Assembly (NCBI GenBank): GCA_030429865.1
Contig: JAUIFX010000006.1
Location: 1-50,579 of the forward strand
Source of the DNA: Gammaproteobacteria bacterium
GTDB lineage: Bacteria; Pseudomonadota; Gammaproteobacteria; Ga0077536
Direction of reading: 5' to 3'
DNA: 50,579 nucleotides
Position numbers and translations under genes: made by a program. Each line of letters begins with the position of its first letter. The first letter of the stretch is position 1. Below, one piece after another: positions 7,447 through 40,951 of the stretch. The notes below the pieces were generated by a model, which searched no databases, had not been told where the DNA came from, and was given only the letters and a program-made list of their open reading frames with translations.

Positions 7447-9413
7447 CGCGTTCGCTGCGTTCCCGCCTGGCGGCCCTGGTCCTGACGGCCCTGGTGTGCA
7501 TCTCGGCGGTCCTGGTGATCGTGCTGGTGCGCGGCGACGCGCGCCAGGTCGAGCGCGAACGTGCCGCACTGCTCGTGCAGGGACTGACCATCGGCCAGGC
7601 CGCGATCGCCGATGACCTGCTGGTCGAGGACTACGCCCGAGCACGCGGTTTCCTCGCCACGCTCGCGCTCGACCCCCAGGTGCGCTTCGCGGCACTCGTC
7701 GACGACGACGACCGCATCATCGTCCACGTCGGCCGGCGCCACGAGAACAAGCGGCTCGACGAGGTCCTGCCAGCCGACGCACTGCCCCTGGTCGCCCGCG
7801 TGCGCGCCCGGCTCACGGCGGAAGTGCGCCGGATCAGTAACGGTGAACTGATCGCGATGTCGCCGGTCGCGCTCGGCGGTAACGGGGTACGCCTGCGCAG
7901 CGGGCGCGTCGGGCTGTTGATCCTGTGCAGCGGCGACCGCGCCGCGCTGGCCCAGGCCTATGCCCGTACCGCGGTCGAGGTCTCGGCGATCACGTTGATC
8001 GTGCTCGTGCTGCTGTTGCTGATTTACTTCGTGCTCGAGCGCGACGTCTCGCGGCCGCTGGAGCGCTTCATGTCAGTGATTGCGCGCCTGCGTGAAGGTG
8101 ATCTCGGCGCGCGGGTGGCCCGCCGGCAAGACGACGAGTTCGGCCGCCTGGCGCGCGCGTTCGACGATGCGCTCGATACCATCGAGCGGCAGACCGCGGC
8201 CATCACCACCAGTGAAGTGCGCCTGAGGCGCACCAACGAGCTGGTCGGCGTGGTCAACCTCGAGTGGGATCTCGTGCAACGGACGCTCGACGTGCCCGAG
8301 CGCTTGTGGGGTATGCTCGGGCGGCGCGCGCCGCCCGGCCCGCTCGCGATGGACGCCTTCACCGCGCTGGTCGATCCTGCGGATCGCGGGCGCTTCGCCG
8401 ACTGTCTCGAGCAGACGCTCAGCGCCGGCCGCGCGTTCGCCGAGGAATTCCGCATGAGTACGGCGGACGGCGCGACCGTGTGGTTGCAGGTCCAGGGCGA
8501 TATCGAGACAGACGCCGAGGGCAAGCCGCTGCGCTTGCTTGCGCTGGCCCAGGACGTGAGTGCGCGGAAAGCTGCTGAGCAGCGCCAGGCGGAGCTCACC
8601 GCGCAGCTGCACGTGGCACAGAAGCTCGAGGCGGTCGGCCTGCTCTCGAACGGCATCGCGCACGACTTCAACAACATTCTCGCCGCGGTCATCGGTTTCG
8701 TCCGCCTGGCGCGGCGCAACCGCAATGGCGGACATCAGCAAGCGATCGACGACTACCTCGACGAGATCGAGGCGGCGGCGCTGCGCGGTCGCGATCTGGT
8801 CGCGCAACTGGTCACGTTCAGCCAGGGGCAGCCCGGGGCAGCGCGCGAACTCGATCTGAACAGCGTCGTCGACGAAGTGATGCGCCTGCTCAAGCCGCTG
8901 TTGCCGTCGGACGTGATGCTGACCTTCACGCGCGCACCCGGCCTGCCGCTGGTGATCGCCGACGCCGTCAGCGCCCAGCAGATCGCGCTCAACCTGTGCC
9001 TGAACGCGCGCGACGCGCAGCCGCATGGCGGGCGCATCGAGGTCTCGTTGAAGCCGCTCGACGTCGACGGCATGCGCTGCGATTCCTGCCACCAGCGATT
9101 CAGCGGCCAGTTCGTCGAACTCGTCGTCAGTGACGACGGCGACGGCATTCCGCCGTCCATGATGGCGCGCATATTCGACCCGTTCTTCACCACCAAGCGG
9201 GAAGGTGAATCGCTCGATGCGGCGAGTCCGGCCGGCTCGGGCCTCGGGCTGTCGGTCGTGCACGGCGCCATCCACCAGGTCGGCGGCCACGTCACGGTGC
9301 GTTCCGAAGCGGGACGCGGCACGCGTTTCGCCATCTGGTTCCCGTGTCACGGCACGGCCGCGCCCGCCACCCGGGCGGGCACCGCGGTCTCGCCAGCGCT
9401 GCACGACGCCTGA
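7443..9413 (+). CDS. Sensor histidine kinase (periplasmic sensor-HAMP-PAS-HisKA-HATPase)
   Basis: 656 residues from a GTG that overlaps the previous stop as GTGA. Membrane helix 1 (about 8-30), periplasmic domain (31-178), helix 2 (179-199), HAMP (200-250), PAS (about 260-375), HisKA with H407 in GIAHDFNNIL, then HATPase with LNLCLNARDA, DDGDGIP and GSGLGLSV motifs. The H-box HDFNN type belongs to the NtrB/HWE-like kinases that often act on sigma-54 regulators. A CDSC pair sits inside the ATPase domain, as in several proteobacterial relatives. No response regulator is adjacent; the one at 285-1658 is the nearest in the window. Translational coupling to the binding lipoprotein suggests the two sense one ligand together. 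Confidence 0.92.
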   Translation: MTRSLRSRLAALVLTALVCISAVLVIVLVRGDARQVERERAALLVQGLTIGQAAIADDLLVEDYARARGFLATLALDPQVRFAALVDDDDRIIVHVGRRHENKRLDEVLPADALPLVARVRARLTAEVRRISNGELIAMSPVALGGNGVRLRSGRVGLLILCSGDRAALAQAYARTAVEVSAITLIVLVLLLLIYFVLERDVSRPLERFMSVIARLREGDLGARVARRQDDEFGRLARAFDDALDTIERQTAAITTSEVRLRRTNELVGVVNLEWDLVQRTLDVPERLWGMLGRRAPPGPLAMDAFTALVDPADRGRFADCLEQTLSAGRAFAEEFRMSTADGATVWLQVQGDIETDAEGKPLRLLALAQDVSARKAAEQRQAELTAQLHVAQKLEAVGLLSNGIAHDFNNILAAVIGFVRLARRNRNGGHQQAIDDYLDEIEAAALRGRDLVAQLVTFSQGQPGAARELDLNSVVDEVMRLLKPLLPSDVMLTFTRAPGLPLVIADAVSAQQIALNLCLNARDAQPHGGRIEVSLKPLDVDGMRCDSCHQRFSGQFVELVVSDDGDGIPPSMMARIFDPFFTTKREGESLDAASPAGSGLGLSVVHGAIHQVGGHVTVRSEAGRGTRFAIWFPCHGTAAPATRAGTAVSPALHDA

Positions 9414-9478
9414 AGCCGCCCCGCTTCGGACCTCCGCTCGCGGGCAGCGCGGCACGTGCGCAGCCACCACGCACGCGC

Positions 9479-9838
9479 TTATTCGAGCAGTTGGCGCAGG
9501 TTCGCGAACGGCTGGTGCGTGGCGCCTTCATCGCGGCCACGCTCGCGGGCGTCACCGCGGGCATCGAGCGCGCGCTGATGTTCGTTGTCGTGGCAGTAAA
9601 GGCAGAGCAGCTCCCAGTTGCTGCCGTCCGCCGGGTTGTTGTCGTGATCGTGATCGCGATGATGGACGGTCAGCTCGCGCAGGTTCGCCTGGGTGAACTC
9701 GCGGCCACAGCGGCCGCAGACCCAGGGGTAGAGCTTGAGTGCCCGTTCACGGTAGCCGCGTTCGCGTTCCTCGCGCGCGCGGCGTGCCTCGGCGACGACG
9801 CGATCGAGACGTTGTTCGTCGATGGGCTTGGCAGGCAT
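9479..9838 (-). CDS. yajD: HNH nuclease YajD
   Basis: 119 residues very close to E. coli YajD along its length. Shared elements are the RALKLYPWVCGRCGREF zinc knuckle, LRELTVHHRDHDHDNNP and GSNWELLCLYCHDNEH, plus the C-terminal PFANLRQLL. The two CxxC pairs and the HH...H arrangement form an HNH (beta-beta-alpha metal) fold. The cellular role of YajD is not established. It is 8 bases downstream of the TLP1 gene on the same strand, so it may be co-transcribed with it, although YajD is a housekeeping-type gene. Confidence 0.95.
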   Translation of the reverse strand: MPAKPIDEQRLDRVVAEARRAREERERGYRERALKLYPWVCGRCGREFTQANLRELTVHHRDHDHDNNPADGSNWELLCLYCHDNEHQRALDARGDARERGRDEGATHQPFANLRQLLE

Positions 9839-9846
9839 GGTCGTGC

Positions 9847-11337
9847 CTAATCGACCGGTGCCGCGATCGTGCGCGAGCCTTCGGCAACCAGGTCGACGCG
9901 CCGGCCGACCACGTTCTCGCCGGTGAACTCCGCGTACACGGCGTCGTCGTGCGGCAGGTTGGCGACGAAACGCAGGCCACGCTCGGTACGTCCGTAGACG
10001 ATACCGCGGGCGGGCCGCTGCTCGCGGTCGTAGACGACCGTCCAGGTTTCGATCACGCCGCCGCCACGCGGGCTCGGATCGGGCGTTTCCGCAGCGTCGC
10101 CGGCATCCGGCGCGGCCGTGTCGTCACGATCGTCGTTGCTGATGTCGTGCATGCCCGGCGTGTCGGCGTAGATGCCGACGGCATACTTGTGCATGAACCA
10201 GCCGAGCGCGGTGGTCATGCCGCTGGCGTGGCGCCCGGCAGCGATCGCCTCGGCCATGCTGGCGATGCCGTGCAGCGCATAGTTGCTGCCCGGGCCGCCG
10301 AAGAAGCCGAGACCGCCGGTCTGCGTGAGCGGGCGCGGATCCTCGTCGTCGAGGCCGAGATGCCGGCGCGCCACGTTGACCGCGCACGGAAAGCAGGAAT
10401 AGAGGTCGAACGCGGCCACCTCCGCTGCCGTGAGTCCCGCGCGGATCTCCGCACGCGCCGCGGCCTGCGCGAGCGCCGGGCTCGAGGTGTAATCGCTCTT
10501 GTCGATCATGAAACGCTGCCGTGCGCGGGCATAACCGCCGCCGCGGAAGTACACCGCGCGACCGCCGCCATCGCGGGTGGCCGCGGCGCGCGCCGCGGTC
10601 GTCAGGATCACGGCCGCACCGATGTCGGCCATGACCAGCGAGACCATGCGCTTGGTATAGGGATAGGCGATGGGGCGGTTGTCCGCCGCCGGCGTGGTGA
10701 TCTCGGTGGGTGACAGCGGACGCCGCGTCCAGGCGTTGGGGTGCCGTGCCGCCACTTCGCTGAAGTCCGCCCACATCCGGCCGACGCGTTCGAGCCAGGC
10801 CGCCTTGTCGAGCCCGGATTGCGCCCACAGCGCGTTCTCGAACAGGGGGAAGCCGTGGATCGGCAGGGTCAGGCCGTGACGGGCTTCGAGCTCGCTCGCG
10901 CCGATCGCATCCTCGGCGTCGTAATCGGCCGGAATACCCTGCAGCAGTGCGCCCTCGCCGCGCGCGGCGTCGGCGCTGCGCGGGTAGAAGGTCTCCGCGC
11001 CGCAGATGAGGACCGACGCCGCCTCGCCGCGCGCGAGCATGCCGGCCGCCTCGTTGACGAACTGTTGCGGTACCTGCCCGCCGATGCCGGACAGGCGCGT
11101 GACGCGCGGCCGCAGGCCGAGGCGCCTGACCAGCGCCTGTTCGGGTGCTTCCAGCACGCGGCTCTGCGGCCGTACCACGAGCACCGCGTCGACCGCCTCG
11201 AGCGCGCCGCGGCCGGCCTGCTCGCCGGCGCGCCGGGCCGCTTGCGCCATCATCTCGATCGGGTCCAGGAACGGCGGGCTGGCCTCGCGCGGCTGGGTGA
11301 CCTGGCCCCAGCCGCTGACCACGACGGCGTTGTTCAT
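9847..11337 (-). CDS. Thiolase-like protein type 1 (TLP1), probable non-canonical acyl-CoA enzyme
   Basis: 496 residues. The first ~385 have the thiolase fold: MNNAVVVSGWGQV at the N-terminus, LSGIGGQVPQQF where active thiolases carry the nucleophilic Cys, and GGLGFFGGPGSNYALHG in place of the GHP-type glycine loop. The Cys position reads Gly and the NEAF-type motif is replaced by YSCFPCAV, so classic Claisen chemistry is unlikely. The last ~90 residues form a small beta domain like the extra C-terminal domain of mycobacterial TLP1. Its start is 10 bases after the stop of the SCP2-hydrolase gene, with a good SD (GAGGA), so the two are one operon. The substrate is unknown. Confidence 0.85.
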   Translation of the reverse strand: MNNAVVVSGWGQVTQPREASPPFLDPIEMMAQAARRAGEQAGRGALEAVDAVLVVRPQSRVLEAPEQALVRRLGLRPRVTRLSGIGGQVPQQFVNEAAGMLARGEAASVLICGAETFYPRSADAARGEGALLQGIPADYDAEDAIGASELEARHGLTLPIHGFPLFENALWAQSGLDKAAWLERVGRMWADFSEVAARHPNAWTRRPLSPTEITTPAADNRPIAYPYTKRMVSLVMADIGAAVILTTAARAAATRDGGGRAVYFRGGGYARARQRFMIDKSDYTSSPALAQAAARAEIRAGLTAAEVAAFDLYSCFPCAVNVARRHLGLDDEDPRPLTQTGGLGFFGGPGSNYALHGIASMAEAIAAGRHASGMTTALGWFMHKYAVGIYADTPGMHDISNDDRDDTAAPDAGDAAETPDPSPRGGGVIETWTVVYDREQRPARGIVYGRTERGLRFVANLPHDDAVYAEFTGENVVGRRVDLVAEGSRTIAAPVD

Positions 11338-20733: not shown

Positions 20734-22935
20734 TTGAACGTGCTTGCCATCACGCGGCCCGCCCGCGCTCTCGTCCACTGCCTGCCGCTCGCACTGGCGC
20801 TGACTACCGCCGGCCTGTCCGCGCGCGCGCCAGCCGCCACGCCGACGGCGGGTGGCGGCCCGTTCGAGATGGAAGAGATCGTCGTCACCGGCACGCGCGA
20901 GGCGCGCGTGTGGGAAGCGCCGCGCAGCGTCGCGGTCATCACCGCCGACGACATCGCGCGCTCGACCAGCGGCAACCTCGTCGACCTGCTCGCGCGTGAA
21001 GCGAACGTCAACCTGCGCAGCTTCTTCGGTCACGACAAGTTTGCCGGCGTCGACATCCGCGGCATGGGCGACACGTTCTCGAGCAACGTGCTGGTGCTCG
21101 TCGACGGCGTGAGGCTCAATGAGGTCGATCTCTCCGGCGCGGATTTCTCGTCCATTCCGCTCGACCAGGTCGAACGCATCGAAGTCATCCGCGGTGCCAA
21201 CGCGGTGCGCTATGGCAGCGGCGCGGTGGGCGGGGTGATCAACATCCGCACGCGGCGCGCGGGTGAGCAGCCATCCGCCAACGCCCGCGTCAGCGCCGGC
21301 AGTTTCGATACTTATACGACGGCGCTCGATCTCGGCGGCGGCTACCGGGGGTTCAGCGCCAACGTCGATGCCGCCTACCACGATACCGACGGCTTCCGCG
21401 ACAACGGTGCGTTCCGCAAGAAGGACGGCGCACTGGAACTGCGCTACGACCACGCCGACTGGCTCTCGGCCTACGTGCGCGCTGCGCTGCACGAGGATGC
21501 CTACGGCATACCGGGGCCCATCCCGCGCGCCGACCTGGAGCGCTCGGCCAAGGCCCGCCAGGCCGCCGCCGCGCCGGACGATGCCGGCGAGACGTTGGAT
21601 CGCCGCTACCGCGCCGGCCTCGAGATCGATCTCGGTCGCTTCGGGCACATCCAGGGCCTCGCGCGGCACCGCAACCGCACCAACCGTTTCGTCGTCGGCT
21701 ACACACCGTTGGTCAACGTGCGCGACCAGCGCAGCGCGATCGAGTCGGTGATGCGCAACTACGAAGGTACCTGGACGCTGCCCTACGCGCTGCTTGGCCA
21801 CGATCACGAGCTGGTACTCGGCTTCGACACCATGAGCGCCGACTACGAGCGGCGCGAGAACGGCCGCGGCCTGGTCGATCGCAGCCGTGCACGTGTCGGG
21901 CGCGTTGGCCAGCACGGCGGCTTCGTCGGCTCGCGCTGGTCCTTGCCGCTCGATGTCGCCGTCGACCTCGGCTACCGCCACGATCGCTTCCGCGTCGACC
22001 GGCGCGAGGAAGCCCTGCGCCGCGTATGCGACATCGAGCTGGTCGACAACGTCGTCGAGACGACCGTGTTCGTCGAGGTCTTCCCGGGCTTCTCGGTGCC
22101 GGTGATCGTCCCGGTCACGGTCACGCTGCCGGTCGAGACCAACTGCCGCGGCGAACTCGCGGTGACGCCGGCGCAGCGCGAGCGCTGGCGCAACGAGGCC
22201 TGGGAAGCGGGCCTGAGCTGGCAGCCACGCAACTGGCTGACGGCCTATCTCAGCTGGCACCGCAGCTTCCGCAATCCGAACGTCGACGAACTCGCACTGG
22301 CAAGCAGCGATCTGCGCCCCCAGCAGGGCGAGCACTGGGAACTCGGCGTGCGCGTGCGCGGCGACGGCCGCTTCGAGGCGGCCCTCGCGCTGTTCCGCAT
22401 GACCGTCGATGACGAGATTTTCTACGGTTTCGATCCCGGCACCGGGCTCGACGTCAATTTCAACCTCGACCAGGGCACCGAGCGTCACGGCGTCGAACTC
22501 GAACTCAAGGGGCAGCTCACGCGCACGCTGCGCGGCTGGCTGAACGCGAGCTATCTCGATGCACGCCTCGCCGAGACCGGCGCGCTCGAGCCCGCCGTGC
22601 CGCGCAACCGCACCGATACCTTCATTCCGCTCGTGCCGCGCGACAAGCTTGCCGCGGGGCTCGAGTGGCAGCCGCATGCGCGCCTGACATTGACCACCGC
22701 GGTCACGTATACCGGCACGCGCTACGACGGCAACGATTTCAGCAACGACCAGTACGACAAGCTCGATGCCTATCACGTCGTCGATGCGAAGCTGCGCTGG
22801 CAGGGCGACGGCTACGCCATCGGCGCGGCCGTCAGCAACCTGACCGATGCGGTCTACGCGACGGCCGGCTATAGCGGCACGGTCTATCCCATGCCGCCGC
22901 GCAGCGTGATGCTCGAGCTGGCGCTGCACCTGTGA
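20734..22935 (+). CDS. btuB: TonB-dependent outer-membrane receptor, BtuB-like
   Basis: 733 residues. Signal peptide (about 1-34), TonB box EEIVVTG (47-53), plug domain (about 58-180, with VDIRGMGDTFSSNVLVLVDG and the RIEVIRGANAVRYGSGAVGG motif), then a 22-strand-type barrel. The riboswitch upstream makes cobalamin the likely ligand. The TTG start is supported by GGAGG at 20722-20726, seven bases away. A nine-codon reading frame (20711-20737) ends overlapping this TTG as TTGA, so starts may be coupled. An unusual V/T/P-rich segment between Cys432 and Cys471 looks like a disulfide-closed external loop. It heads a likely operon with two tagged surface proteins. Confidence 0.92.
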   Translation: MNVLAITRPARALVHCLPLALALTTAGLSARAPAATPTAGGGPFEMEEIVVTGTREARVWEAPRSVAVITADDIARSTSGNLVDLLAREANVNLRSFFGHDKFAGVDIRGMGDTFSSNVLVLVDGVRLNEVDLSGADFSSIPLDQVERIEVIRGANAVRYGSGAVGGVINIRTRRAGEQPSANARVSAGSFDTYTTALDLGGGYRGFSANVDAAYHDTDGFRDNGAFRKKDGALELRYDHADWLSAYVRAALHEDAYGIPGPIPRADLERSAKARQAAAAPDDAGETLDRRYRAGLEIDLGRFGHIQGLARHRNRTNRFVVGYTPLVNVRDQRSAIESVMRNYEGTWTLPYALLGHDHELVLGFDTMSADYERRENGRGLVDRSRARVGRVGQHGGFVGSRWSLPLDVAVDLGYRHDRFRVDRREEALRRVCDIELVDNVVETTVFVEVFPGFSVPVIVPVTVTLPVETNCRGELAVTPAQRERWRNEAWEAGLSWQPRNWLTAYLSWHRSFRNPNVDELALASSDLRPQQGEHWELGVRVRGDGRFEAALALFRMTVDDEIFYGFDPGTGLDVNFNLDQGTERHGVELELKGQLTRTLRGWLNASYLDARLAETGALEPAVPRNRTDTFIPLVPRDKLAAGLEWQPHARLTLTTAVTYTGTRYDGNDFSNDQYDKLDAYHVVDAKLRWQGDGYAIGAAVSNLTDAVYATAGYSGTVYPMPPRSVMLELALHL

Positions 22936-22969: not shown

Positions 22970-23800
22970 ATGAAGACACGATTGTACGCATCGCTCGTCG
23001 CGCTCGGTGCGCTGGCGAGCGGCCCGGCACTGGCCGGACCATTCGCGCCCGCGGCCGGCCAGCCTGGCAGCACCGCGGTCGCCAAGACCCACAGCGCCAT
23101 CAGCGGCTGGGCCACGGAGGTCGTCAGCTACCAGCCGGCGAGCGGCGTCGACGCCACCTGGCGCGATCCCACCAAGGCGCTCGGCGCGGCGGCCGGCGAT
23201 GCCTTCGACATCGTCAGCCTGGGCAACAAGGGCAGCATTACGCTCGGCTTCGGCGGCACCATCTACAACGGCCCGGGCTGGGACTTCGCGGTGTTCGAGA
23301 ACAGTTTCAACCCGACGTTTCTCGAATTCGCTTTCGTCGAGGTGTCATCGAACGGCTCGACGTTCGTGCGCTTCCCGGCCTTCTCGCTGACGCCCGCGCC
23401 GGTCGGCGGCTTCGGTGCGGTCGATCCGACCAACGTCGATGGCCTTGCGGGCAAGTACCAGGCCGGCTACGGCACGCCGTTCGATCTCGGCCTGTTCGCC
23501 AACGCGAACATTCCCGGCTTCGACGTCAATGCCGTCACCCACGTGCGCCTGGTCGACGTCAAGGGTGACGGCAGCGAGCGTGACAACTGGCCGGCGAGCG
23601 TCGGTGGACCCAACCCCATCTACGATGTCTACCCGACCGTCGGCAGTGTCGGTTTCGACCTCGATGCGATCGGGGTGCGCTACCTCGAGGCGGACCCGCC
23701 GGTCGTCGCGCCGCCACCGTCGACACCCGTCCCCGTTCCGGGTGCGGCGCTGCTCGCGTTGGCGCCGCTCGCGCTGCTGCGCCGCCGCCGGCGTGCCTGA
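22970..23800 (+). CDS. Exported protein with VPxP-type C-terminal sorting tag, cobalamin operon
   Basis: 276 residues: signal peptide (1-22, ending PALA), one beta-rich domain, then a VPVPGAALLALAPLALL helix and an RRRRRA tail (254-276), the layout of PEP-CTERM/VPLPA tags cut by exosortase. The domain has GWDFAVFENSF, FLEFAFVEVSS and STFVRFPAF motifs, which I recall from Bacteroidetes cell-surface proteins; no catalytic residues stand out. A strong SD (AGGAGGGAG) precedes the ATG, 34 bases after the receptor stop, so it should be under the same riboswitch. A role in surface binding of corrinoids is inferred from context only. Confidence 0.82.
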   Translation: MKTRLYASLVALGALASGPALAGPFAPAAGQPGSTAVAKTHSAISGWATEVVSYQPASGVDATWRDPTKALGAAAGDAFDIVSLGNKGSITLGFGGTIYNGPGWDFAVFENSFNPTFLEFAFVEVSSNGSTFVRFPAFSLTPAPVGGFGAVDPTNVDGLAGKYQAGYGTPFDLGLFANANIPGFDVNAVTHVRLVDVKGDGSERDNWPASVGGPNPIYDVYPTVGSVGFDLDAIGVRYLEADPPVVAPPPSTPVPVPGAALLALAPLALLRRRRRA

Positions 23801-23818: not shown

Positions 23819-24673
23819 ATGAATATCCGTCTCATCCCCGCGGCGTTCGCCGCGGCCCTCGCCAGCGGCACGGCCGGTGCCGCGACCATCACGTTCGAAG
23901 ACGCTGCAATGCCCAATGAACAGGCCTACACCGGGCCCGGCGGCGGGCGTTACTGGGGCGGCGCGGTGCCGCCGCCGCTCGGCACCGTCGCTGCGAGCTT
24001 CACCTCCGGCGGCGCGGCGTTCGCCAACCAGCGTACCGACTGGGGCGGCGGTTTTGCGTCGTGGAGCGGCTTCGCCTATGCCAACACGACCGACACCACG
24101 ACCGCCGCCTTCAGCAACGAGTTCAGTGCCTACGCCGGTGGTGGTGCCGGCGGCAGCGCCAACTACGGCGTCGGCTACGTGTCGAACTACGACGCGGCGC
24201 CGCGCATCGACTTCGCCGCGCCGCTCGAACTCGCCGGCGCGAGCTTCACCAACACGACCTACGCCGCGCTGTCGATGCTCAACGGCGATGGTTTCGCCAA
24301 GCGCTTCGGCGGCTCGAGCGGTGACGACGCCGACTGGTTGAAGCTGTCCGTGACGGGCCTCGACGCGCAGGACGCGGTGACCGGCACGGTCGATGTCTAC
24401 CTGGCCGATTACCGCTTCGCCGACAACGGTCTCGATTACGTGCTGGACGATTGGCGCTACGTGTCGCTGGGCAGCCTCGGCAGGGTTTCGGCACTGACGT
24501 TCAGTATGAGTTCGTCGGATGTCGGCGCCTTCGGCATCAACACGCCGACGTATTTCGCCATCGACGACATCGTTCCGGTGGCGACCCCGGTACCACTGCC
24601 GGCGGCGCCGTTGCTGCTGGTGCCGGCTTGTGGCTGGGTGCTGACGCGGCGCCGCGCACGCGAGCGGCGCTGA
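23819..24673 (+). CDS. DUF4465 protein with VPLPA-CTERM tag, cobalamin operon
   Basis: 284 residues: signal peptide (1-21), DUF4465 domain, and a VPLPAAPLLLVPACG hydrophobic tag with RRRARERR tail (258-284). DUF4465 landmarks are SWSGFAYANTTDTTT, GYVSN, FTNTTYAALSMLNGDGFAKR, VDVYLADYRF and NTPTYFAIDDI. DUF4465 proteins are frequent in Bacteroidetes as secreted or lipid-anchored proteins and, as I recall without being able to check, occur in their vitamin B12 loci. Only 18 bases follow the previous stop, so it is the third gene of the riboswitch operon. Here a sorting tag replaces the lipobox. Ligand binding is a proposal. Confidence 0.87.
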   Translation: MNIRLIPAAFAAALASGTAGAATITFEDAAMPNEQAYTGPGGGRYWGGAVPPPLGTVAASFTSGGAAFANQRTDWGGGFASWSGFAYANTTDTTTAAFSNEFSAYAGGGAGGSANYGVGYVSNYDAAPRIDFAAPLELAGASFTNTTYAALSMLNGDGFAKRFGGSSGDDADWLKLSVTGLDAQDAVTGTVDVYLADYRFADNGLDYVLDDWRYVSLGSLGRVSALTFSMSSSDVGAFGINTPTYFAIDDIVPVATPVPLPAAPLLLVPACGWVLTRRRARERR

Positions 24674-39766: not shown

Positions 39767-40123
39767 GGATGTTTCCTTGTTGCTGTGCTCGCCGCCGGGG
39801 GCGGCGGCCGGTGGTTGGCGGAAACGGCTAGGTTAACCGACAACGCCGCCCGCCGCGGCCCGGCATGAGCCGGGCGGCGCGGGGCACGGTGGGCGCCAAG
39901 CAGGCGCAATCGTTTCAGCTTGCCAAATCGTGCCGGCGTGACTTGCAGCTGGCAGGCACGCACGGCGCCGGCGCGGGAAATGCGTAGTACGTCGCAATCG
40001 TCCGGGCCGCTGACAAATGTTGACACGCGGGCATCGCGCCCTGGTCGTAGAGTATCCGCCAACAGCATTGACTGGCATCAGCAGATGCAGGATGCGCTCC
40101 GCAACCGTAAAGGATTCATTGCC
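39767..40123. other. Non-coding divergent spacer
   Basis: About 357 bases between DUF1330 and the PEP-CTERM gene. It contains an isolated TTGACA (40020-40025) without a -10 at normal spacing and a TAGAGT 22 bases after it. No RNA gene or credible ORF is seen. Confidence 0.45.
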
Positions 40124-40951
40124 ATGACGACGACCCTGCGACCTCTCATCGCCGCAGCCTGCCTCGCCTGGGGCGGGCAAGCCGCGGCCTACCTGATCGA
40201 TGACCAGGCTTCCGCCCCGCTGCGCTACCACGGTGGCAACGGCCATGGTTACGGCGACGTCGTCGGCAGCGCCGCGACGTTCGACGTGCTCGGTGCCGAC
40301 ATCGCCCTCGACGGCAGCGTACTGACCGTCGACATCTACACCAACCTCGTCGGTAACGCCGGCGTGTTCGCCCCCTACACCGCGTCGGGTCGTGGCATCG
40401 GCTACGGCGATCTCTTCCTTGCCAACACCTGGACGCCATTCGGCACGCCGAACTTCGACAACGACGATCACGCGAGCGGCACGGTGTGGCAGTACGGGCT
40501 CGCCATCAACGGTGACCGCTGGGCCAACAGCGATTACGCAAACTCGGCGACGCTCTACGCGCTGGGCGGCACGAACGATGCGAGCGCGCTGCTCTCCGAC
40601 GACCTCATGCAGGGCAACGCGGTCTGGCGCAACGGCCAGGAAGTGCTCGTCGACCGTGCCGCGGGCGGCGCCGTTACGGCGGTCGGCAGTGGCACCTGGA
40701 GCGTCTCGGCCAGCGCCGATCGCATCCGCTACCAGGTCGACATCTTCGGTACCGACCTGTGGTGGCAACCCGGCCAGAGCGAGCTGACGATCGCGATGCA
40801 CTGGGCGATGGACTGCGGCAACGACGTCATCGAGGGGGCGACGGTGTTCTTCGACCCGCCGCCGAACACGAGCGTGCCGGAACCGGCCGCGCTGGGTCTC
40901 GCCCTGTTGGGTCTCGCCGGCGCCGGCGGGCTGCGTCGGCGTCGCGCCTGA
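40124..40951 (+). CDS. PEP-CTERM sorting-domain protein
   Basis: 275 residues: signal peptide (about 1-22, ending GQAAA), a beta-rich secreted domain, and a canonical VPEPAALGLALLGLAGAGG tag with RRRRA tail (251-275). The tag predicts cleavage by an exosortase and release to the cell surface or matrix. The domain begins AYLIDDQASAPLRYHGG and has no recognisable catalytic motif. An AAAGGA SD lies nine bases before the ATG. No exosortase or polysaccharide gene is nearby, and its tag differs from those in the cobalamin operon. Confidence 0.88.
   Translation: MTTTLRPLIAAACLAWGGQAAAYLIDDQASAPLRYHGGNGHGYGDVVGSAATFDVLGADIALDGSVLTVDIYTNLVGNAGVFAPYTASGRGIGYGDLFLANTWTPFGTPNFDNDDHASGTVWQYGLAINGDRWANSDYANSATLYALGGTNDASALLSDDLMQGNAVWRNGQEVLVDRAAGGAVTAVGSGTWSVSASADRIRYQVDIFGTDLWWQPGQSELTIAMHWAMDCGNDVIEGATVFFDPPPNTSVPEPAALGLALLGLAGAGGLRRRRA

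Follow-up and report, generated by a model that had tools for sequence, protein, structure and literature searches.

A riboswitch-controlled gammaproteobacterial locus that likely encodes two exosortase-tagged proteins for vitamin B12 capture

What does a DUF4465 protein with an exosortase-type tail do behind a cobalamin riboswitch in a gammaproteobacterium, and where did it come from? The question was raised by an earlier note on the window, by which we mean the whole 50,579-nucleotide stretch of DNA analyzed here (contig JAUIFX010000006.1 of assembly GCA_030429865.1). The note had placed the DUF4465 open reading frame (ORF) at 23819–24673 on the forward strand; we found it exactly there, encoding a protein of 284 aa, and confirmed its domain with the Pfam model PF14717, a match far beyond chance (184.6 bits against a gathering cut-off of 25; E = 2.7e-54). 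Its description of the family as unassigned is outdated, since B12 binding by DUF4465 was published in 2025–2026 (PMC12751083, PMC13398666). In Bacteroides thetaiotaomicron, BtuJ1 and BtuJ2 are B12 binders that deliver the vitamin from vesicles (Juodeikis et al. 2025, PMC12751083), and eight divergent family members bind B12, with a tyrosine in the HI loop as their hallmark (Clarke et al. 2026, PMC13398666). The core B12-binding function of DUF4465 is thus already published; what is new is its exosortase-displayed form and a recurring, sometimes fused partner related to BtuH. Our search of the literature on exosortase or PEP-CTERM together with B12 returned no description of this system.

By sequence search, the window DUF4465 protein matches all six solved DUF4465 sequences. 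Its AlphaFold2 model (pLDDT 94.7) has the augmented beta-jellyroll fold and, in VIA comparisons, reaches Z-scores of 27.4 to the B12-bound structure 9hmu, 26.7 and 26.3 (9fct) to BtuJ1, and 23.6 to BtuJ2; the highest-scoring unrelated fold reaches 9.6. Alignment places two of the three shared corrin-contact tyrosines in the window protein. The first, Tyr148, lies in the DE-loop helix within the segment TNTTY (residues 144–148; 24248–24262, forward strand) and corresponds to BtuJ1 Tyr146, which contacts the corrin ring (PMC12751083); this position is Tyr in 42 of 43 members. The second, Tyr245, lies in the HI loop within NTPTYF (residues 241–246; 24539–24556, forward strand), an instance of the (G/N)TPxYF motif, and corresponds to the corrin contact Tyr245 of BtuJ1, with Tyr in 40/43 members. 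The third, in the AB loop (BtuJ1 Tyr97), is Phe98 here; at this site 22 of the 43 members have Phe and 17 have Tyr. The earlier note had proposed comparing a predicted structure with known cobalamin-binding surface proteins, and that comparison returned a B12-binding fold with conserved pocket tyrosines. From the fold match (Z 27.4) and the two conserved corrin contacts we therefore conclude that this is most likely a BtuJ-type B12-capture protein displayed by an exosortase route, with B12 binding predicted from its homologs. Like BtuJ1/BtuJ2 and D5EK51 (PF14717/IPR027828; PDB 9FCT, 9I2L, 9HMU), it combines the same domain, fold, and HI-loop and DE-helix tyrosines with a cobalamin riboswitch and TonB-receptor context. 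Unlike BtuJ1/BtuJ2, it bears an exosortase-type C-terminal tail and no lipobox, and has Phe in place of BtuJ1 Tyr97; Bacteroides BtuJ loci additionally carry accessory genes for BtuG, BtuK, and BtuL.

The genes around it form a compact unit on the forward strand, in the order cobalamin riboswitch, TonB-dependent receptor, BtuH-like tagged protein, and DUF4465 protein, with intergenic gaps of 34 bp and 18 bp; beyond the last gene lies a gamma-glutamyltransferase gene on the opposite strand. The riboswitch (RF00174; 20496–20712, forward strand) matched its model over the full length of 1–189 (cmscan, 95.6 bits against a gathering score of 31.5; E = 1.2e-22), and no second cobalamin riboswitch was found in the 4.6 Mb genome. 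B12 control of the DUF4465 gene, which the earlier note had asserted, holds in the sense that the riboswitch heads the unit. It lies about 3.1 kb upstream, so the gene would be controlled as the last of a probable operon and not directly. Co-transcription is suggested by this arrangement, and scans of the operon for promoters and terminators gave nothing exceeding shuffled sequence. The association with B12 extends beyond the window: a cobalamin riboswitch accompanies DUF4465 in 46 of the 49 related loci scanned, and the remaining three start at a contig end.

The receptor gene (20734–22935, forward strand; 733 aa) matches the Pfam Plug (E = 2.4e-26) and TonB_dep_Rec_b-barrel (E = 7.4e-44) models, with either TTG at 20734 or GTG at 20740 as its start codon. 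Assignment as a BtuB equivalog was rejected, as the protein scores 151.6 bits against the curated cut-off of 599.7 for NCBIfam TIGR01779, and we therefore limit its label to a TonB-dependent receptor under B12 control. By sequence it resembles BtuB no more closely than it resembles a siderophore receptor, which counts against our preferred explanation of the locus. Based on the riboswitch and the neighboring genes, it is probably a receptor for B12 or a related cobamide.

The earlier note overlooked a second tagged protein, encoded between the receptor and DUF4465 genes (22970–23800, forward strand; 276 aa). On inspection it has a Sec signal and a tripartite tail, VPVPGAALLALAPLALLRRRRRA (23729–23797, forward strand), consisting of a VPVP motif, a hydrophobic stretch, and RRRRR; the MYXO-CTERM and XDP1 models match this tail at E = 0.01 only. 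The protein falls in no Pfam family, and among NCBIfam models it resembles LIC_13355 lipoproteins, below the threshold. We built a profile from 32 members and compared it with all PDB sequences, for which the best match was 8blw, the H-domain of BtuG1 (E = 8.7e-4), found again together with BtuH2 (7biz) in a further search; the BtuG1 H-domain is a BtuH domain (PMC10404256). The same profile hits the BtuH ORFs of three Bacteroides-type loci (5.4e-7 in L128, 2.8e-5 in L129, and 2.4e-5 in L112). The AlphaFold2 model of the window protein (pLDDT 95.5) has BtuH2 and the BtuG1 H-domain as its top two VIA matches (7biz, Z 12.6, rmsd 3.2, 160 aligned; 8blw, Z 11.5), followed by CBM32/discoidin domains at Z 9.6. 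Since profile and predicted fold independently rank BtuH first, we regard BtuH as its nearest relative.

A direct hhalign comparison of the partner with BtuH gave a probability of 84% over 46 columns only, leaving the C-terminal half unaligned by sequence. We tied BtuH2 residue numbering to the published Gln333 and Asn399, a single offset fitting both in 7biz. Asn399, which contacts the B12 phosphate (PMC8941943), aligns with Asn111 of the window protein (23300–23302, forward strand), invariant in 32/32 members, and Phe401 with Phe113, present in 30/32. The BtuH corrin contacts His476, Tyr510, Trp511, and Trp577 fall outside the aligned part, Asn399 and Phe401 being the only contacts aligned with confidence. 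Compared with BtuH1/BtuH2 and the BtuG1 H-domain (7BIZ, 8BLW), the partner shares co-location with a receptor and DUF4465 and the invariant phosphate-site Asn, and differs in its approximately 20% identity, its much shorter C-terminal half, the absence of PKD and propeller domains, and an exosortase-type tail where BtuH proteins are lipoproteins.

We weighed the possibility that this partner is a structural or carbohydrate-binding scaffold of the discoidin/CBM32 type, holding the DUF4465 protein in exopolysaccharide and binding no B12 itself. Its fold is indeed discoidin-like, unrelated CBM32 domains come as close as Z 9.6, and the two proteins are regularly adjacent or fused. In the B. thetaiotaomicron loci, moreover, BtuL showed no B12 binding and, of BtuK1 and BtuK2, only BtuK1 bound (PMC12751083). 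However, sequence and fold alike point first to BtuH, and the residue matching the phosphate-contacting Asn of BtuH2 never varies across the partner family, making a pure scaffold unlikely. We favor the reading of the partner as a second surface protein that probably binds B12. Homology to BtuH, operon position, and fusion to DUF4465 give this widespread, Pfam-less family a testable function. Separately, 24 of its 32 members weakly match NCBIfam NF033170, the Leptospira lipoprotein LIC_13355, at a best E of 3.6e-6 and below the cut-off. Earlier work on LIC_13355 has addressed its binding activities, and a B12 role for it could be tested.

Next to this single locus stands the recurrence of the pair. 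We scanned 84,980 species genomes and obtained 40 loci from about ten phyla, in nearly all of which the two families are adjacent or lie in one ORF; the loci were retrieved by similarity to the branch that holds the window sequence, and the rates therefore apply best to that branch. In the window's class, DUF4465 occurs in 4 of 369 genomes, and the partner occurs in all four of these and in six genomes altogether. Among 295 Bacteroidia genomes, 81 have DUF4465, 90 have a strong partner match, and 70 have both, within 5 kb of each other in 48 of the 70. Fisher P values for co-occurrence are 2e-8 and 3e-37, and overstate independence because the survey rates ignore genome relatedness. The two domains are fused in six planctomycete proteins (L023, L024, L025, L029, L032, and L033), and in Bacteroidia fusions exist in both orders, with the partner first (L101), DUF4465 first (L102), or a canonical BtuH domain first (L112). 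A further candidate, L042, was rejected as a fusion; a PEP-CTERM tail lies within it where the two parts join, and it is thus two precursors in one ORF. In one ortholog locus (L010) the pair occurs together with btuC, btuD, btuF, and a cobalamin adenosyltransferase gene. On viral contigs we found no relative, and on plasmids no relative of the BtuH-like partner. A gammaproteobacterial ortholog locus (L009) contains, at 7476–8666, a beta-propeller-like lipoprotein with the TonB receptor on one side and the BtuH-like gene on the other, BtuG-like by position; we withhold the name BtuG from it, since a PDB sequence search gave no BtuG match.

If both proteins capture B12, by what route do they leave the cell? 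The DUF4465 protein begins with MNIRLIPAAFAAALASGTAGAA, a Sec-type signal without a cysteine lipobox (23819–23884, forward strand, cleavage site approximate), and ends with VPLPAAPLLLVPACGWVLTRRRARERR (24590–24670, forward strand), in which inspection reveals the VPLPA-type sequence of motif, hydrophobic stretch, and basic tail. This tail matches no NCBIfam sorting-tag model at E ≤ 1 and is absent from the 22 places in the genome found with TIGR03370. Support comes from orthologs and from the genome: all 14 complete-ended Pseudomonadota DUF4465 proteins, the window's included, bear an exosortase-type tail, the same crude rule marks only 11 of the 623 further ORFs in these loci, and several family members match VPLPA-CTERM/PEP-CTERM models. 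The genome encodes an exosortase (PF09721, E = 2e-68; contig C9) and 10 other VPLPA-CTERM tails above the curated cut-off. On the combined strength of inspection, ortholog tails and model matches, and an exosortase with 10 other such tails, we accept the tag, in agreement with the earlier note's description of an exosortase tag without a lipobox. Exosortase cleavage and surface location of both proteins would follow by extension. A precedent among PEP-CTERM/exosortase substrates is ZepA of a zinc uptake system, which shares the Sec signal and VPxP tail and is likewise an exported nutrient-uptake protein with TonB-dependent transporters nearby; it differs in its ligand, zinc, in control by a zinc-responsive repressor, and in a domain unrelated to those of the window proteins (PMC10957091).

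An alternative is that both tagged proteins bind cobamides in the periplasm or at the inner membrane, the tails being plain membrane anchors or degraded. More than 70% of DUF4465 members are lipoproteins and the rest were called periplasmic in a study that makes no mention of PEP-CTERM or exosortase (PMC13398666). No mechanism is established for carrying exosortase substrates across the outer membrane, and the tail of the window DUF4465 protein is atypical, scoring below the sorting-tag models. Against this, signals for delivery to the surface are found on orthologs in other phyla, namely T9SS tails in Bacteroidota and lipoboxes in gut Bacteroidales, Spirochaetota, and Myxococcota, and ZepA was detected in the exoproteome (PMC10957091). 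We judge a periplasmic site improbable and retain surface display by the exosortase route. The frequency of exosortase or T9SS tails likewise calls into question the published periplasmic reading of non-lipoprotein DUF4465 proteins.

Taking gene order, riboswitch, domain families, folds, conserved contact residues, exosortase presence, and recurrence of the pair as computed here, and borrowing B12 binding, sorting, and hand-over to the receptor from homologs, we propose how the locus would work. At low B12, the riboswitch would permit expression of the receptor and the two capture proteins, which would reach the periplasm through Sec. The exosortase encoded in the genome would then cut the VPxP tails of both, and the two proteins would come to lie at the cell surface or within the exopolysaccharide. 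In that position they would capture B12, which is scarce, and hand it over to the TonB receptor, in the manner of the surface lipoproteins of Bacteroides. After import, BtuF/C/D-like proteins, for which candidates are encoded on contig C88 of the same genome, may carry it inward for the B12-dependent enzymes that the genome also encodes. We consider it likely that the locus is a riboswitch-controlled operon for B12 (cobamide) acquisition, in which two exported, exosortase-sorted capture proteins feed a TonB receptor. Scavenging of B12 at the cell surface has been studied almost exclusively in gut Bacteroides; the present locus would extend it to exosortase-bearing members of other phyla, and would provide exosortases with a defined cargo whose ligand can be measured. 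More tentatively, the BtuH-like/BtuJ-like pair may be the module by which Gram-negative bacteria outside the gut generally capture B12, and exosortase lineages would release it into exopolysaccharide or tether it there; the biofilm matrix might then serve as a riboswitch-controlled extracellular B12 store for the TonB receptor, a reading that we rate as less likely than not.

The earlier note further suggested that DUF4465 had moved between phyla with re-tagging. Exosortase tails occur on DUF4465 proteins of Pseudomonadota, Omnitrophota, Verrucomicrobiota/Kiritimatiellota, one Myxococcota locus, and some Planctomycetota; T9SS tails in most Bacteroidia; lipoboxes in gut-type Bacteroidales, Spirochaetota, and one Myxococcota locus; and a planctomycete LEDR signal on fused proteins. 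Mapping anchor type onto the DUF4465 tree requires nine changes, so that re-tagging between lineages is borne out. Two-protein loci mostly carry the same anchor on both members, as in a spirochaete with two lipoboxes (L026) and Bacteroidia with two T9SS tails, with exceptions in the planctomycete loci L030, L034, and L047. As anchors differ by lineage and are matched within most loci, we conclude that re-tagging is real and usually affects both partners.

The direction of transfer is a different matter. Phyla are clustered on the tree but not clean (14 changes, against 30.7 after shuffling), and inter-phylum transfers must therefore have happened at some time. A recent arrival of this locus from Bacteroidota, followed by re-tagging in this genome, would fit the rarity of DUF4465 in the window's class and its frequency in Bacteroidia (4/369 against 81/295). 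Yet on the 60-row tree the window sequence sits outside Bacteroidota, in the starred proteobacterial clade (99/85) with proteobacterial nearest rows; a 92/85 branch sets the non-Bacteroidota rows apart, together with a single Bacteroidota row among them; and the members found in the class all bear exosortase-type tails. The tree already contradicts such an origin, which we reject as very improbable. Re-tagging thus stands, and the part of the claim that would derive the window's copy from Bacteroidota does not.

Other features of these genomes touch on tagging and control. The window encodes another PEP-CTERM protein at 39920–40951 (forward strand), with the tail VPEPAALGLALLGLAGAGGLRRRRA near 40874–40945 and a weak match in the genome-wide tag search. 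Elsewhere in the same genome (L146; contig C18, 14000–24000), a probable haem-type uptake cluster consists of a TonB-receptor-like ORF, a periplasmic binding protein, a FecCD permease, and an ATPase; a VPLPA-tagged secreted protein adjoins it and a similar-looking one lies nearby, perhaps forming a second exosortase-tagged nutrient-capture system. In Desulfobacterales, L018 encodes at 8773–10467, directly behind a cobalamin riboswitch, a DUF4465 domain fused to two DUF4214 repeats; having neither exosortase tail nor lipobox, it is a further delivery variant. Finally, a deltaproteobacterial locus (L052; 6862–7058, 7412–7487, and 3637–3821) has a c-di-GMP-I-GGC riboswitch between the cobalamin riboswitch and the DUF4465 gene, which suggests joint control by a biofilm signal and B12.
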